A stretch of DNA of 64,000 nt. It comes from Acidobacteriota bacterium (GTDB lineage Bacteria > Acidobacteriota > Terriglobia > Terriglobales > Acidobacteriaceae). Position 1 is the first letter of the stretch, and each line of letters starts with the position of its first letter. Location of the stretch: positions 496,001 through 560,000 of the forward strand of contig JACPYL010000025.1 in NCBI GenBank assembly GCA_016196065.1, read 5' to 3'. The notes under the pieces were generated by a model. The model saw nothing but the letters and a program-made list of their open reading frames with translations, did not search any database and was not told the DNA's origin. The translations under genes were made by a program, and so were the position numbers. This document shows positions 23,979 to 29,179 of the stretch, one piece after another.

Positions 23979-26078
23979 ATGAAAATCCACCCATCAAAAC
24001 GACTAGCTCTGCTCCTGCTGCTAAGTGTCAGCCTGGTTTGGGGACAGACCGCCGCCGATTCCCCCGCGCCTCCAACTTCTTATCCCTCGCCCACTCCAGC
24101 CGCCCTAGCCACCGCCGAGCACGCGATCTCAGGACACGACCCGGGACCCTCAGGCCCGAGTCCTGTCACTGACCTGCTGAAGCTTCTGCTGGCCAGCGTC
24201 AACTCGACGGAAGCCTTTACGAACATGGAGGCAATGTGGGCAACCGACCGCTATTTTGACTTCGCCAGATTTCAGCAGACCGCAAAGAATGTCGCGGAGA
24301 TGATGCGGCAGGCAGGACTGGACGACGTCCAGATAGGCCAGGGGCCCGCCGACGGTGTGACGCAGAACGGTTTTTGGACGCAGCCGATGGCGTGGGACGC
24401 GCATTCTGCCACGTTGGAAATCGTGTCGCCTCAGGTTCCAGAGGACATGCGCGTTCTTGCCGACTATCAGAAAATTCCTACCTCGCTGTGCCAGTGGAGC
24501 GGTCCCACTCCACCCGGAGGCGTCGAGGGTGAGCTCGTGCTGCGTCCCAAGGACATTCGCAATGCGGATCTGAAAGGCAAGTGGGTGCTTGGCCACCGCA
24601 TGTCCAAGACCGATTTGAAGCAGGCCGGTGCGCTGGGTATGGTTCGCGAGAGCGGGGTGAACCGCACGCTGTTGGACGAGCGCGACTGGGAGAACGATTT
24701 CGGCGATAACGGCTGGGCCTTCAATAAAAACGACACGCCTACGGTGTGCCTCTCCATTACACCGCGACAGGAGCAATACCTTACTGAGTTGCTAAAAAAA
24801 GGACAAGTGAAGCTCCGCGCCAACGTTGACACACGTTACTACAGCGGGACGTATCCGTATGTAAGCGGCGTCATTCAAGGCACCGACGGCGCGGACGCAG
24901 AGGAAGTGCTCTCACTCGGACATTTATATGAAGAGGGCGCCAACGATAACTCCGCAGGCGTCGCATCCATTCTTGAAGCCATAACCACCCTCAACCGGCT
25001 GATTAAGGAAGGCAAATTACCCAGGCCAAAGCGGACCATCCGCATGTTGGCCATGGGCGAGCGCTATGGCACGCTCGCGTATCTCGATGCCCACAAGGAT
25101 CGAACCAAGCGAACCATCGCCGCGATGTGCATCGACACACCCGCCGGATGGCAGTACATGGCAGGAACGCAATTCATCTGGTCCATGAATCCGCAATCGG
25201 CCAGTTCTTTTGTGGATGCATTCACTGTGCGCCTTGCCGCGGAATATTTCCCCATGGTGCGCCGTCCTCATTTATGGAGTGAGTACAACCGGGGCGCATA
25301 CTACGGCGGAACCGACGATGACCTCGGCGAGTCGATGATCGGCATTCCCACGACCTCGGTGAATAGCGGCCACGGAATCCCTGCCCACCACACCAGCTTC
25401 GATACCCCCGCGCAGGTCGACCCCAAATCCCTGCGCGACCTCGCCGTCATGAACGCGGCTTACGCATATTTTCTGGCATCGGCGGGACCGGAGCAGATGC
25501 ACTGGATGGCTGAGTTAGCAGTGGAGCGCGGATACGATCAGATCAATTCGGGGACGGCAAACAGCCTGGACCTGGTGGCTGCGGCAAGAGACGCCGACAG
25601 CCTGGGACATCTTCTCTATTGGGAGAAGGCTCGCGTTGACTACAACCTGGCGCGCGAAACCAAGGCGGTCAAACAAGCCGTCAATCTCCCGCAGGAACTG
25701 GCTGCACTAGCCTTCTTTGCCGGCGCGCAGAAAGTGCGGATCGAAGGCGCCGTGAAAGACCGTGCAACGCAACTTCATTTGGCAACGATACAGCCGATGC
25801 CCCCCAACTTCGGTCCCGAAGCCGAAAAGATCATCGTTCGCCGCAAGCGAATGGGCGCTCTCCCACTGGATGAGATTCCAGAGAGTCAGCGGGAAGGATT
25901 TCCTGACAGCGGCTTCTGGTCGCCAACCATGGCAGCACTTTACTGGTGCGATGGCAAACGCAATCTAGCCGAGGTCATCCAAAACACGGAGATGGAACTG
26001 GGCCCGCAAAATAATTTTGACTGGGTGGGTTATTTTAAATTCCTGCAGCGGCACGGTTACGTGGACTTCGTGCAGTAA
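23979..26078 (+). CDS. Secreted M28-family peptidase
   Basis: Metallopeptidase homologue of 699 residues with a signal peptide (SKRLALLLLLSVSLVWGQ). An N-terminal helical/PA-like part (PPGGVEGELVLRPKDIRNAD, then WVLGHRMSKTDLKQAGA) precedes the peptidase domain with GHLYEEGANDNSAGVASILE, holding the first His and bridging Asp. The usual EE pair of M28 enzymes appears as MGERYGTLAYL, so the second Glu is Arg. The last metal His lies in GIPAHHTSFDTPAQVDP. A winged-helix-like tail (MAALYWCDGKRNLAEVI) closes the chain. With one metal-ligand Glu missing it may bind one zinc or be catalytically altered. It stands alone. Confidence 0.85.
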   Translation: MKIHPSKRLALLLLLSVSLVWGQTAADSPAPPTSYPSPTPAALATAEHAISGHDPGPSGPSPVTDLLKLLLASVNSTEAFTNMEAMWATDRYFDFARFQQTAKNVAEMMRQAGLDDVQIGQGPADGVTQNGFWTQPMAWDAHSATLEIVSPQVPEDMRVLADYQKIPTSLCQWSGPTPPGGVEGELVLRPKDIRNADLKGKWVLGHRMSKTDLKQAGALGMVRESGVNRTLLDERDWENDFGDNGWAFNKNDTPTVCLSITPRQEQYLTELLKKGQVKLRANVDTRYYSGTYPYVSGVIQGTDGADAEEVLSLGHLYEEGANDNSAGVASILEAITTLNRLIKEGKLPRPKRTIRMLAMGERYGTLAYLDAHKDRTKRTIAAMCIDTPAGWQYMAGTQFIWSMNPQSASSFVDAFTVRLAAEYFPMVRRPHLWSEYNRGAYYGGTDDDLGESMIGIPTTSVNSGHGIPAHHTSFDTPAQVDPKSLRDLAVMNAAYAYFLASAGPEQMHWMAELAVERGYDQINSGTANSLDLVAAARDADSLGHLLYWEKARVDYNLARETKAVKQAVNLPQELAALAFFAGAQKVRIEGAVKDRATQLHLATIQPMPPNFGPEAEKIIVRRKRMGALPLDEIPESQREGFPDSGFWSPTMAALYWCDGKRNLAEVIQNTEMELGPQNNFDWVGYFKFLQRHGYVDFVQ

Positions 26079-26187
26079 TGACGGTCCCACATCTCGAAAC
26101 CGCGAGCTGCGGGGCACGCCAAAAATTTGACTTCCTAATTTATTGTGAAAGGCGGGTGGCCCATCTCTGCATTGCACGATTGCCACG

Positions 26188-26383
26188 GAGGGTGCCCCAT
26201 CCTTGTGTTTTTTGCCTGGTGCCCCAGGTTCGCGCCGCGTCATATAACGTCTGCGGTTTTCACTTCTCTGGTTTTGGGGCGCTAACCTGGGCGGGGCAAC
26301 TCCTTAGACCATCCGAATATCTTGAATGATTCGGCAATCCCAGGTTAGCTCGCCTTCGGCTACGCGGAACCTGGGGCACCAGG
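26188..26383. repeat. Nested inverted-repeat element (GGTGCCCC family)
   Basis: The outer arms CCTGGTGCCCCAGGTTCGCG (26215-26234) and its near-complement at 26363-26383 differ by one base insertion. Inside lie AACCTGGG (26284) and CCCAGGTT (26339). The left flank includes ATCCTTGTGTTTTTTGC (26199-26214), which recurs at 28473-28489. Nothing in 26079-26430 looks like a gene. Confidence 0.75.
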
Positions 26384-26430
26384 CGGACAAAAGAAATGGG
26401 GTCAGTTCCGCCTGTCCCTTATCAGACCTT

Positions 26431-27210
26431 CTAAACAATGCCAGACAGATTCTTCTCACGGATGACTTCCTGGACCGCTTTCGTGCCGGGAGGAAGGATG
26501 CGAATTCTGTCGGTTTGTTCCGTGAATTCGATCAGCCGCTTCTTATGCAGGCCGCGGATTGTTCGCATTACGTATTTCTTATCGCCATATTCGATCCACT
26601 CGACCAACTGCGCTGAAGTAACATCCGGCATTGACACGGCGGCAAGAAGCAGAATCTTTTCGTGTAGTTTTAGAGTTGTCTCAAGGACGCGCTTAATTCC
26701 GTCATCCCCCGTCCACACCGCGGGAAGCCTCACCTCAACTAGCGCGTCCACTAATTGTTGAGCATGTGTCGTCGTAAGGTTGTGAAACACACGGACGAGT
26801 TCGCCCATAATCCAGTTTGACATCGAGAGCACAACGACCGCATCCATGTGGTTTGGATCAACATCGCCTCCGACATGCCCCACGTTGCGGTTATTCCGCA
26901 CGTCGTAGAGCACAGGAAGCATACGAGGGATTAAAATCTGAAAGCTGTGAGGGACGTGCGACAGTTTGTTCTTCTCTAGTGAGCGACAAGCGCCCACGAA
27001 GTCAGATGGCTTTGCAGGAGCAGGGGCATAGCCTTTCTTCGCATGGCCGTCGAGAATTGTGTATACAGTCTCGCTGAATCGCCCCCCGTGCAATTCGGAA
27101 GGAAGCCAACGCTGCTCAAGAAAGTTTTGCACAATGGTGCCGTATTCTTTGAGCAGCGGATCGCGTAGCCCGGGCGGAATTGCGGATAGTGCTGAGGAGG
27201 CGGCAATCAT
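26431..27210 (-). CDS. HEPN-like protein with C-terminal winged helix
   Basis: 259 residues. The middle helical part carries LYDVRNNRNVGHVGGD, in which Arg105 and His112 form an Rx6H motif (or Arg108-x3-His112) with the polar residue after R expected of HEPN ribonucleases. Helices before (FVGACRSLEKNKLSHVP) and after (VLSMSNWIMGELVRVFHNL) fit a HEPN four-helix bundle. The last 75 residues look like a winged helix (VTSAQLVEWIEYGDKKYVMR, then LHKKRLIEFTEQTDRIRILP). HEPN proteins often act as RNases in toxin-antitoxin or phage-defence systems; a dedicated family name is not known to me. It starts one base after the stop of the upstream small gene, so the cassette is one operon. Confidence 0.7.
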   Translation of the reverse strand: MIAASSALSAIPPGLRDPLLKEYGTIVQNFLEQRWLPSELHGGRFSETVYTILDGHAKKGYAPAPAKPSDFVGACRSLEKNKLSHVPHSFQILIPRMLPVLYDVRNNRNVGHVGGDVDPNHMDAVVVLSMSNWIMGELVRVFHNLTTTHAQQLVDALVEVRLPAVWTGDDGIKRVLETTLKLHEKILLLAAVSMPDVTSAQLVEWIEYGDKKYVMRTIRGLHKKRLIEFTEQTDRIRILPPGTKAVQEVIREKNLSGIV

Positions 27211-27211
27211 G

Positions 27212-27673
27212 TCACATGCCGAGAGACGCCCGACCTGGATCAGTCACGAAAAATCCTTTATCGCCGTCCTTCTCGCAGTGCCCCTTCGTTACATTGCTGT
27301 TAAGGCAATCCGATGGATTGTTCAATTTCGGTTGATTCGCGTTCTTCAAAGTGTTCTTAACTTCGGTAGTAGTGAGCCTGTTTTTTCCAGTCGTATCGTG
27401 CAGGTAAACTGAAGTCGCGAGGAACTTTTTGACCTGATTGCTGGTTGTATTTTTTTCTTTCAAGAAGGCAGCAAGAGTGCCCAACTTGCCATTTTTCTTT
27501 TTTGTGATTCCACCTTCGCTGTTTTCGGCCGCAGTTGTTTCCAATTGTGTGACGTCTGCCAGTTCAGAGAGTTTCGCCAATACTTTCTCTAGTTCCCCCG
27601 ACAGCCATTTCTCGGTGCCTTCTCCCGTGAACGCGAACCCACCCATTTTGATTTCAATTTTGGCATCAGCCAT
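27212..27673 (-). CDS. Small winged-helix-like protein A of the HEPN cassette
   Basis: 153 residues from the ATG at 27673, chosen because GGAG stands six bases before it (a second ATG four codons upstream overlaps that GGAG). N-terminal strands and a coiled region (MADAKIEIKMGGFAFTGEG) precede a C-terminal domain with LAAFLKEKNTTSNQVKKFLA, TSVYLHDTTGKNRLTTTEVK and a GFFVTDPGRASL end. That domain parallels the C-terminal part of the next gene upstream: an FL helix, a [VI]YL helix, an L[TS]-tract, and a final VT-x-x-G. I read it as a winged-helix variant that probably binds nucleic acid or a partner. The base composition is more AT-rich than the flanks. Confidence 0.65.
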   Translation of the reverse strand: MADAKIEIKMGGFAFTGEGTEKWLSGELEKVLAKLSELADVTQLETTAAENSEGGITKKKNGKLGTLAAFLKEKNTTSNQVKKFLATSVYLHDTTGKNRLTTTEVKNTLKNANQPKLNNPSDCLNSNVTKGHCEKDGDKGFFVTDPGRASLGM

Positions 27674-27801
27674 GCTCGACTCCATAACTCAAGAATTCCG
27701 CCGTAACAGCGGATGCAAATTGCCAGAAGCGGGGCTTACGAGACGTTCAATCATCTCCATTCGTTCGACACTTAAGGTACGTCTCGTCTTTGTCATTGTT
27801 T

Positions 27802-28356
27802 TCATTCCTCATTCCTGTCCGTCCCTTCGCTAATAAGACGATAACCGTATTCCAGTCCTGCTCGTGTTACTCGATATTCCTTCCATGCCTGCTTTGACTT
27901 GCCTGCTTTTTTGGTCTGAATCATGTGTTGTGGCTTTCGCGACTTGAGCGTATTGATTGAGTCAGTAATGTTTTTGACGCCGTGTCCGAGGTCCTTTAGA
28001 ACGTCATTGATCTGCTTACCCGAAAGCGTGGCATCAGGGGAATCGCTGAAATCTTGGAGATATATGGCGACGCAGAGAACGCGGTCCGCATCAGTTTGGG
28101 GGGATGCAGCAGCCAAGAACTCACCAACGCTCTGGAAACCGTCAGGGTGATTTTCAAATGCCGCGTCAATCGCTGGCTTTTTCGGCCCTATCTTTGTCCG
28201 CCCGAGGAGGGCCGGCTGGATGCCTAGCTTCTCGCCGGTCCACCGGAGCACTCTTTCACGTTCGCTTTCAGAGAGAGGCTCGAGGGTCTTGATGATTGTT
28301 TCAAGCGCTTTAAGATCGGCGAAATGTACGGCGGGGGTCTCCGGCTTGGTTGTCAT
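27802..28356 (-). CDS. Small winged-helix-like protein B of the HEPN cassette
   Basis: 184 residues, first gene of the cassette. Helices at about 10-45 (LKALETIIKTLEPLSESERE) are followed by a domain homologous to protein A: VGEFLAAASPQTDADRVLCV, AIYLQDFSDSPDATLSGKQI, INDVLKDLGHGVKNITDSIN and YRVTRAGLEYGYRLI. The I-N-x-L helix and the VT..G end are the clearest matches. I recall proteins of this kind scattered through accessory regions of many bacteria but know of no named function. The start ATG lies six bases after a TAATAT -10 box, so the transcript may be leaderless, and operator-like ACTTGG repeats overlap the promoter; the protein may regulate itself. Confidence 0.65.
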   Translation of the reverse strand: MTTKPETPAVHFADLKALETIIKTLEPLSESERERVLRWTGEKLGIQPALLGRTKIGPKKPAIDAAFENHPDGFQSVGEFLAAASPQTDADRVLCVAIYLQDFSDSPDATLSGKQINDVLKDLGHGVKNITDSINTLKSRKPQHMIQTKKAGKSKQAWKEYRVTRAGLEYGYRLISEGTDRNEE

Positions 28357-28399
28357 ACTTGGATATTATCCCTAGAGCGCCCAAGTGTCAACTCCAAGT
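28357..28399 (-). promoter_or_regulatory. Promoter and operator-like repeats of the HEPN cassette
   Basis: On the minus strand: TTGACA (28391-28386), 17-bp spacer, TAATAT (28368-28363), then six bases to the ATG at 28356. Three copies of ACTTGG or its complement CCAAGT sit at 28357-28362, 28381-28386 and 28394-28399, overlapping both promoter boxes. Confidence 0.7.
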
Positions 28400-28460
28400 C
28401 GTGACGAGAAGTTTGGGGAGGGCAGACGGGACGGTTTCTGCTTTGTATAGCAAATTCCCA

Positions 28461-28487
28461 CGCAAGGGGGCCATCCTTGCGTTTTTT
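28461..28487 (+). terminator. Hairpin plus T-run (terminator-like dispersed repeat)
   Basis: Stem CGCAAGG (28461-28467) / CCTTGCG (28475-28481), loop GGGCCAT, then six T. The right part matches 26199-26214, so it is also a dispersed repeat copy. It lies upstream of the HEPN cassette and downstream of the SRPBCC gene, not at a gene end on the plus strand, so a termination role is uncertain. Confidence 0.5.
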
Positions 28488-28498
28488 GCAAGAGCCTG

Positions 28499-28518
28499 CC
28501 CTGAGCTTGTCGAAGGGG
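28499..28518. repeat. CCCTGAGCTTGTCGAAGGGG intergenic repeat
   Basis: A CCTTCGACAAGCTCAGG-type imperfect palindrome found as a dispersed intergenic repeat in many bacterial genomes. The rest of 28357-28669 shows no gene apart from the promoter and terminator-like hairpin listed separately. Confidence 0.6.
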
Positions 28519-28669
28519 TGGGCGGCGATGCTGCCGGCACAACTCTGTGGTGGCTTCTGCAGTTTGAAAGCCGGACCACGCGCCCCGCCCACCCTTTGGT
28601 TTTCCGGCACGGACCAGCGTTGCGTTACGTTCAGATCTCGCGCATGACAATCATCAAAACTCCAACTTC

Positions 28670-29179
28670 TTACTTCGCCTGCGCTAGCTTGGTAACGACT
28701 GCGGCAATTTTATCGAGTATCTGGTTCCATCCCTCCATTTGACCGCTCTCTTTCGCGCTCTCCATGGGTTCATTTCCAATGAAGGTGAGTTTCGTCTGGC
28801 CGTTTCCGAGATCCTCAAAGATGGTCACGTCGTACGCACCGTCGATGGCCTCATGTTCTATTCCTAATTGGGCGGCGTCAACCTTGTTTCCCTTTGAGTC
28901 CGAAAAGTACATGGAGGAAACGATCTTCTCGTGCAGAACAATCTCGTGGTATTCAACCAGATTCCAGCACTCCTGCCCATCCGGCATCTTCATGCAGAGG
29001 AGAGATTTTCCCCCAACGCGAAAATCCATCTGGCAAACGGGCGCAGTAAAGCCCTTCGGCCCCCACCACTGCATCACGTACTGCGGGTCTGTCCACGCCT
29101 TCCAAACCAACTCGCGTGGGGCATCAAAAACTCTTGTGATCACCATCCGCTCTGGTTCGTTCATCGTGCTTTTCGTCAT
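28670..29179 (-). CDS. SRPBCC (AHSA1-type) domain protein
   Basis: 169 residues of the START/Bet v1-like fold known from Hsp90-activator homologues: VFDAPRELVWKAWTDPQYVM near the start, WWGPKGFT, the FRVGGKSLLCMKMPDG segment and EGWNQILDKIAAVV at the end. Such proteins bind small hydrophobic ligands. The start ATG overlaps the stop of an ArsR-type regulator in an ATGA junction; an ArsR gene followed by an SRPBCC gene is a very common two-gene unit, probably sensing a stress or toxicant. The ligand is unknown. Confidence 0.88.
   Translation of the reverse strand: MTKSTMNEPERMVITRVFDAPRELVWKAWTDPQYVMQWWGPKGFTAPVCQMDFRVGGKSLLCMKMPDGQECWNLVEYHEIVLHEKIVSSMYFSDSKGNKVDAAQLGIEHEAIDGAYDVTIFEDLGNGQTKLTFIGNEPMESAKESGQMEGWNQILDKIAAVVTKLAQAK

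Follow-up and report, generated by a model that had tools for sequence, protein, structure and literature searches.

An apparently inserted cassette encoding a predicted HEPN-winged-helix protein and two small winged-helix-like partners as a candidate conflict system in an Acidobacteriota bacterium

What kind of system is encoded by three adjacent genes that match no known family in the genome of an Acidobacteriota bacterium (Terriglobales; Acidobacteriaceae)? The genes lie in a 64,000-nucleotide stretch of this genome (assembly GCA_016196065.1, contig JACPYL010000025.1, positions 496,001 to 560,000 of the forward strand; hereafter the window), and an initial annotation, made from the letters alone, had proposed them as a candidate conflict system. 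All three open reading frames (ORFs) that it listed are present on the minus strand and are read in the order A, B, C: P0003 (A-type small partner, 27802..28356, 184 amino acids), P0002 (B-type small partner, 27212..27685, 157 amino acids) and P0001 (HEPN-type effector, 26431..27210, 259 amino acids). The genes are separated by 116 bp (P0002/P0003) and 1 bp (P0001/P0002), and each is present in a single copy in its own 5.5-Mb genome. The true start of P0002 is probably 27673, since its relatives begin at the internal sequence MADAKIEIK. We lean, with somewhat more confidence than doubt, towards reading this locus as an inserted cassette of the abortive-infection or toxin-antitoxin type, in which a HEPN RNase effector is accompanied by small winged-helix partners that silence it and/or sense a trigger.

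Searches of Pfam, NCBIfam, PHROGs and PADLOC gave no significant match for any of the three proteins. The best Pfam match of P0001, DUF1106, scored 15.8 bits against a cut-off of 27 (E 0.015), and among 31 aligned P0001-type proteins Abi_C was matched once, at E 0.046, while the best Pfam match of any kind was to UBM, in 3 of the 31 (E 6e-4). In an alignment of P0001 with 30 relatives (A1; L001 is the window itself, and L015, L026 and L034 were left out), R105 and H112, which make up an Rx6H motif of the form R-N-x5-H, were present in all 31 sequences, as were E47, R108, D123, W133, E137 and R140, and the polar residue after R105, N106, was present in 30 (S in the other one). The peptide DVDPNHMD is also invariant in A1, an invariance that is inflated because this peptide was one of the search patterns used to find the loci.

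The AlphaFold2 model of P0001 (mean predicted local distance difference test score, pLDDT, 87.2) contains a helical bundle spanning approximately residues 13-143, with helices at 13-31, 35-58, 88-106 and 119-143 and a short extra helix at 71-79 between helices 2 and 3, followed by a winged helix at 176-259. In this model R105 closes helix 88-106, H112 lies in the loop before helix 119-143, and E47 lies in helix 2. According to PMC3710099, HEPN domains are four-helix bundles with an Rx4-6H motif at the end of helix 3 or the start of the loop to helix 4, a polar residue (mostly N, D or H) directly after the arginine, an acidic residue that many families conserve in helix 2, typically within Ex3[KR], and a frequent insert between helices 2 and 3. 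The residue at +4 from E47 in P0001 is T rather than the K or R of the typical motif. P0001 aligned with the HEPN structure 2hsb over 122 of 126 residues (Z 10.5, root-mean-square deviation 3.9). Its C-terminal winged helix was predicted confidently and matched MarR-type chains (best Z 11.1, root-mean-square deviation 3.1, 79 residues aligned), and this MarR-family winged helix dominates the structure comparison of the whole protein. The conserved R105/H112 pair and the MarR-like domain thus bear out the earlier description of P0001 as an Rx6H HEPN-like protein fused to a winged helix; the prediction that the same annotation had proposed as a check, in which the absence of a HEPN bundle would have counted against it, showed four helices so arranged and placed the motif at the position typical of HEPN domains.

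Several results weigh against this assignment. In a wider set of 16 hand-picked sequences that included members found by profile (A4), E47, R108, H112, D123, W133, E137 and R140 were kept in all 16, while R105 was kept in 14 and replaced by A in two; because R105 varies and R108 does not, the catalytic residues may differ from the classical pair. In the motif loop (109-113) the pLDDT is below 50, Foldseek alone returned nothing at E<=0.001 for the P0001 model, and the Z of 10.5 is under the safe level for helical bundles, such that it alone would not settle the predicted fold. Because motif, motif position and topology combine, HEPN is the likeliest reading of the modelled N-terminal domain.

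For P0002, the model is confident only for the C-terminal winged helix (71-154), with an N-terminal beta-hairpin and helix at low confidence. P0003 has, judged from its sequence, an N-terminal helical part and a C-terminal part related to the winged helix of P0002. The initial annotation had called the two small proteins related, and their C-terminal parts are indeed linked, although how firmly varies with the rows of the alignment: hhalign gave E 8e-9 over 86 columns with the intermediate L003 protein in the B-type alignment and E 3.5e-4 (probability 37) without it. Among 10 A-type proteins, K150 and K159 never vary. The winged helix of P0001 showed no profile similarity to either small protein (E 0.065 and 0.096), and this non-match serves as a negative control for the links among the small proteins.

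We scanned a genome collection of 84,980 species with short peptides and obtained 33 loci, which span Acidobacteria, Proteobacteria, Bacteroidetes, Actinobacteria, Chloroflexi, Omnitrophota, Hydrogenedentota, Amesbacteria, Saccharibacteria and a Diapherotrites archaeon. In 28 of these 33 loci, a same-strand ORF of 91-264 amino acids ends -44 to +20 nucleotides from the HEPN start, often overlapping it by 1-4 nucleotides; an upstream, coupled small partner gene is a feature of type II toxin-antitoxin systems. The remaining five are L004 (gap 146), L022 (gap 182), the fragments L026 and L034, and L016, in which the small frame ends 136 nucleotides before the HEPN start taken and a nearer ORF lies in a different frame.

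Models built for five small-protein sub-types (A-E) and for four related groups identified a relative upstream of HEPN in 34 of 38 loci, 26 of which had helped to build the models and 8 of which had not. No upstream relative was found in L027, L032, L033 and L034, the first three of which carry an unmatched small ORF at this place. B-type relatives lie upstream of HEPN in L002, L003, L005 and L007, and across a 146-nucleotide gap in L004, and A-type relatives do so in, for example, L006, L012, L021, L023-L025, L028, L029 and L031. Single-sequence searches with P0002 and P0003 likewise supported upstream relatives, and the A-type profile matched 18 of 28 HEPN-bearing genomes, each time at the HEPN locus by position. 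Because the architecture recurs across phyla, the arrangement is not a product of chance. The HEPN gene is preceded by two small relatives in five loci, namely the window, L003, L016, L025 and L031.

We mapped the adjacent sub-type onto a HEPN tree whose rows represent ten bacterial phyla by submitters' titles (L001, L026 and L034 and the divergent L045-L048 and L054 were left out). At least 7 changes are needed for 31 labelled rows, with a minimum of 4, compared with a mean of 17.25 and a lowest value of 13 in 100 shuffles of the labels; a first labelling had given 8 changes for 29 rows, before L016 was relabelled and L022 and L052 were added. HEPN and partner have thus for the most part been passed on as a pair, and partners have been exchanged in some cases. 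P0001 has its nearest relatives in Acidobacteriota bins, and the window's clade (100/100) groups Acidobacteriota with a Bacteroidetes (Bacteroidota) bin, a Rhizobiaceae bin and a Deltaproteobacteria (Myxococcota) bin, although single placements are no proof of transfer because a bin may contain stray contigs. At the nucleotide level the closest locus, L002, is 74% similar across 26431-27712 (the B and C genes), with nothing outside.

The HEPN gene is rare among relatives of its host. Its profile matched 5 of 61 related genomes and, across the whole phylum, 6 of 297 (the window's own genome is counted in both), and 1 of 23 congeners (G020), which has a divergent copy in a different neighbourhood. 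We rejected a core-gene reading on the basis of this count and of a cassette-free site in a congener; the conservation at one place across related genomes that the initial annotation had said would overturn its proposal was not seen. We also rejected the reading as a phage-borne gene, as there was no match in 50,697 phage records, and among viral contigs 17 stretches matched the peptide pattern, none encoding a relative; these two negatives count against the reading as an inserted conflict cassette. The one plasmid match was distant, in Natronomonas.

The cassette is flanked by two direct copies of a 19-bp repeat on the plus strand, at 26197..26215 (left) and 28471..28489 (right). Within the window these 2 matches compare with 0.05 expected, and in the 5.5-Mb genome the pattern has only two places with fewer than three mismatches and 3 others with three. 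The congener G003 (L190) has one repeat copy and no cassette: sequence corresponding to window positions 26151-26215 (89%) is followed, two bases apart, by right-side sequence 28516-28546, and after 79 bases of its own the same two genes resume as in the window, which we take by eye to be of SRPBCC and ArsR type. This match is imperfect, in that only 65 bp of the left side is common, the gene further left differs, and window positions 28490-28515 have no clear counterpart in G003. Comparison with G003 puts the apparently inserted unit at ~2.27 kb, and this unit does not encode a recombinase. The peptidase gene on the left flank is not conserved in the genus (best identity 49%), so a test of the left flank carries no signal. 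As far as read, the window genes on either side of the cassette are not defence genes, by reading alone and with no family search made on them.

The right flank is kept in three further congeners (G014, G009 and G013). In G014, the place of the cassette is taken by a gene matching a "plasmid stabilisation system protein" in the PDB (E 1.6e-5), presumably ParE-like (a name given by eye), preceded by a small gene. In G009 it holds a pair that by eye we take to be DUF5343-like and TIGR02391-like and for which PDB searches were empty, while in G013 we saw no comparable pair at this place, only ordinary-looking genes. The site, downstream of the SRPBCC-type gene (window 28490-28670), may be a hotspot for small conflict cassettes. 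The occupants of this putative hotspot in congeners are at L189 2523-3070 and L191 6634-7894.

A palindromic element (26203..26395; 29-nucleotide arms 83% matched, inner 18-nucleotide arms perfect) lies at the left end of this unit, in the interval from the HEPN stop codon to the left repeat, and the single-strand DNA fold of 26190-26410 has a z of -5.91. This palindrome could be an end resembling that of a miniature inverted-repeat transposable element or a recombination site. An integron attC reading was dropped, as no consensus core sites were seen by eye, and Rfam gave nothing at gathering score within 25900-28900. In base composition, the AT-richer block that the initial annotation had described holds mainly for the two small genes, with 500-bp guanine-plus-cytosine (GC) values of 0.47-0.51 across ~27.0-28.2 kb against ~0.52-0.63 in the remainder of 23-33 kb, but does not extend to the HEPN gene (~0.52-0.54), and a second, comparable dip occurs at 20.5-21.2 kb.

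Neighbourhoods of the HEPN loci were surveyed using 107 proteins near 27 loci, with cassette genes removed (L001-L004, L015, L026 and L034 were left out), and 107 control proteins from 20 stretches of the same genomes, which were in part short and were not matched for distance to contig ends. At E<=1e-20, 31 PADLOC families were found near HEPN loci versus 5 in the controls, a comparison that counts families rather than genes and in which several models can match one gene; among the 25 of these 31 families listed were DarT, DarG, MTase_II, AbiEi, DrmD, MzaA and RT_UG29. The corresponding Pfam comparison (111 families versus 166 in controls, top 25 listed) does not discriminate. In L021, L028 and L029 the position directly upstream is occupied by a phage integrase, a serine recombinase and an ORF that partly matches a C5-methylase.

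When the small proteins were used as profile queries, 20 further places emerged beyond the window and the known HEPN-adjacent copies, 12 of which have a recognisable effector beside or fused to the small protein. In G028, G314 and G1013, the small protein accompanies a ParA-like ATPase and a RelA/SpoT-domain protein (RelA_SpoT E 1e-13, 1e-13 and 3e-14, respectively); the ATPase of G028 matches AAA_31 at E 1e-29, and those of G314 and G1013 we take by eye to be ParA-like. This recurring operon, at L060 6020-8448, L073 4415-6690 and L115 5648-7905, is possibly a toxic alarmone synthetase system. AbiEii-type nucleotidyltransferases in G279 and G235 (AbiEii E 1e-30 for G279) end in a fused B-type unit that is nearly complete (A3 profile positions 11-159 of 163); the two fusion proteins are 61% identical and lie at L069 5002-6333 and L070 5248-6585. 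The pPIWI-associating nuclease pP_pnuc_1 accompanies the small protein in G446 (E 3e-12) and G424 (E 4e-8), at L101 1693-3040 and L103 4944-6214, the former adjoining type I restriction-modification genes for specificity and restriction subunits.

The other places are more varied. Another HEPN-like protein, assigned by its [LF]RNxCGHP motif, occurs with the small protein in G464, where it has no Pfam match, and in G774, where the two are divergently transcribed. In G747 the companion is a DUF4145 protein (E 5e-7), and in G312 it is a protein that has no Pfam match, matches the PADLOC candidate PDC-S05 at E 6e-15 and is presumably PLD-like (by eye). In G401 the small protein goes with a window-type HEPN, flanked by type I genes for specificity and restriction subunits and lying on the opposite strand. 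Small relatives also lie in L046 among a second HEPN-like gene and a TIR gene (PADLOC TIR-TM E 7e-61) and in L003 (1379-2829) directly before a 287-amino-acid protein whose only Pfam match is DUF5919 (E 0.057) and which by eye we take to be TIR-like or nucleoside-transferase-like.

Homology between these contexts was assessed by hhalign profile comparison of 13 sets (78 pairs). All 13 sets were connected, with 32 of the 78 pairs above probability 20 (all E<=8e-4), and among 468 comparisons with column-shuffled controls none fell below E 1e-3 (best probability 5.7, E 0.0067). The C-type was linked to the G464 protein at E 1e-35 and to the G424 (pP_pnuc) protein at 4e-10, the ParA-RelA/SpoT set to the E-type at 5e-11 and to the A-type at 5e-9, the A-type to the L003 (TIR-like) protein at 3e-9 and the B-type to the G312 protein at 2e-5, and the G747 (DUF4145) small protein matched the D-type model at 1.5e-10.

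Other results speak against the proposed reading or weaken it. The remaining 46 of 78 pairs were not above probability 20, and the group formed by the D-type and the DUF4145 context is tied weakly (best with the E-type, probability 55.7, E 1.2e-4). Several first matches were weak (G464 2.7e-5, G424 7.8e-5, G971 2.9e-5, G1013 4.2e-5), with E-values that refer to one genome when ~350 genomes were searched; with the sub-type models the values became 1.9e-46 for G464 and 9e-13 for G424. Four of the 20 places (G007, G959, G971 and a second G376 copy) have no recognisable effector or lie at a contig edge, and four more are standalone B-like genes in one family (f15). These standalone genes (L072, L074, L075 and L076, at ~6.1-6.8 kb) have no effector in sight, and beside the L072, L074 and L076 copies is a transporter gene that we take by eye to be of SSF type. 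In L069, moreover, the gene upstream of the AbiEii fusion presumably, by eye, encodes an AbiEi-like protein, and the fused small domain therefore need not be an antitoxin.

Judged from the profiles, the links between small-protein contexts appear strong in some cases and weak in others. We consider it an even question whether the small proteins constitute an undescribed, transferable partner superfamily of several sub-types that arms many unrelated effectors, with the window cassette as one member of a combinatorial conflict network under a common principle of control or sensing. The effectors in this proposed network would be window-type HEPN, other HEPN-like proteins, pPIWI-associated nucleases, DUF4145 proteins, ParA with RelA/SpoT, PLD-like proteins, AbiEii and TIR-like proteins. 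A superfamily common to other effectors goes beyond what the initial annotation had read from the locus.

We then compared the cassette with known systems. As far as they are described in passages of PMC3710099, HEPN conflict RNases share with P0001 the predicted four-helix arrangement, the R-N-x5-H motif at the end of helix 3, the acidic residue in helix 2, the insert between helices 2 and 3 and the link to restriction-modification and toxin loci, but P0001 matches no Pfam HEPN family, and none of the architectures in those passages combines a C-terminal MarR-like winged helix with small winged-helix partners. In HEPN/MNT (HepT/MntA; PMC7641770), a HEPN RNase gene likewise stands beside a small partner gene; the partners in the window are instead winged-helix proteins, and membership was rejected as neither small protein matches a nucleotidyltransferase family. 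Panacea (PanA; PMC8832971, PMC10440598) resembles the present case in that one small-protein family is found with many unrelated toxins and partners are swapped. It differs in that the fold here is a winged helix, cassettes sometimes carry two different small proteins, and neutralisation here is putative; P0002 and P0003 had no Panacea match in Pfam at E<=1, so membership was rejected.

CapK/CapS controllers (PMC13373217) include a winged-helix protein encoded beside varied immune effectors, whereas the small genes of the window adjoin or overlap the effector gene. CapS proteins combine a STAS domain with a winged helix and stand next to the kinase CapK; membership was rejected, as there was no STAS or kinase match in Pfam among the three proteins. 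AbiEii is the toxin of a type IV toxin-antitoxin system (Pfam), and the small-protein unit is fused to it in G279 and G235, but none of the three window proteins matches AbiE and the effector here is HEPN. In PADLOC-DB 2.0.0, the only match was of P0003 to SP_VI at E 0.04, with none for P0001 or P0002 at E<=1, and a known defence system was rejected. Apart from membership in the HEPN superfamily, each named system tested thus has a defining feature that the cassette lacks. The earlier statement that no named system has this composition agrees with our family searches and with the literature searched, from which most subscription-journal papers are missing and in which no description of the system was found; passages on BREX, DefensePredictor and nucleoside triphosphate-dependent conflict systems make no mention of the cassette. 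The effector chemistry is familiar, while the proposed partner superfamily and its combinatorial use would be new.

How might the cassette be controlled? A sigma-70-like promoter (TTGACA-17-TAATAT, 10 of 12 matches; 28363..28391, minus strand) lies just before the ATG at 28356, a position that would imply a leaderless transcript, although 2 promoter-like sites were found in the region versus 1.6 expected by chance. Inverted 6-bp arms, ACTTGG (28381-28386) and CCAAGT (28357-28362), straddle the -10 element as a putative operator, which possibly fits autoregulation.

According to the mechanism that we propose, P0001 would be a metal-independent endoribonuclease, and one or two small proteins encoded just upstream would bind it, keep it silent and/or sense a trigger, and probably also bind the cassette's own promoter. 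Upon infection, a HEPN dimer would be released, cut RNA and stop growth. The domain make-up, the conserved motif, the recurrence of the gene order, the rarity and cross-phylum patchiness, the direct repeats and the presence of partner relatives beside several unrelated effector types all support the earlier proposal of a candidate conflict system, and an antitoxin-like role for the small proteins is suggested because antitoxins show the same upstream position, coupling and partner sharing. The same proteins might instead be nucleic-acid sensors or adaptors that recognise invader DNA or RNA and recruit or activate HEPN, RelA/SpoT, PLD-like or AbiEii effectors. The near-complete B-type unit at the C-terminus of AbiEii-type proteins, the two different small proteins before one HEPN gene in five loci and the occurrence with ParA-like ATPases and within type I restriction-modification loci favour such a role, and the invariant K150 and K159 would suit nucleic-acid binding, but genes that lie upstream with overlaps of 1-4 nucleotides occupy the usual antitoxin position, and the N-terminal part of P0002 is poorly predicted. 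Because the AbiEii fusions and double partners speak for sensing or targeting, we give this alternative about half the weight of the antitoxin-like reading and regard it as tentative.

We think it improbable that the small proteins are mainly transcription regulators of the adjacent immune operon, like CapS or CapW, with HEPN acting alone. Winged helices and a near-consensus promoter with inverted arms over its -10 element fit such regulators, and CapK/CapS precede diverse immune operons (PMC13373217), but the small genes lie immediately next to the effector gene, often with an overlap, the effector polypeptide itself includes the domain in G279 and G235, and some cassettes have two different small proteins. 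Less probable still is a non-toxic, possibly catalytically inactive HEPN-winged-helix protein that binds RNA or DNA and regulates host metabolism. Although non-catalytic HEPN domains exist, according to PMC3710099, and R105 is not universal in the wider set, conservation of H112, R108, E47 and D123 in all 16 of those sequences, the rare, patchy, cross-phylum distribution, the position between direct repeats and the richness of the neighbours in defence families relative to controls argue against it.

If the reading as an inserted conflict cassette is correct, it would bring in a so far unannotated family of HEPN effectors that occurs across bacteria and archaea, and the 2.27-kb unit flanked by direct repeats would offer a tractable three-gene system to clone. 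The partner superfamily could be used as bait, in that a gene beside a small winged-helix protein would be a candidate effector, and the network would have a reach similar to that of Panacea but another fold and, in some cases, two partners for one effector. It would also raise the question of whether one small-protein fold controls RNases, alarmone synthetases, nucleotidyltransferases and other nucleases by one mechanism, and whether that common mechanism is neutralisation or sensing would become a concrete question.

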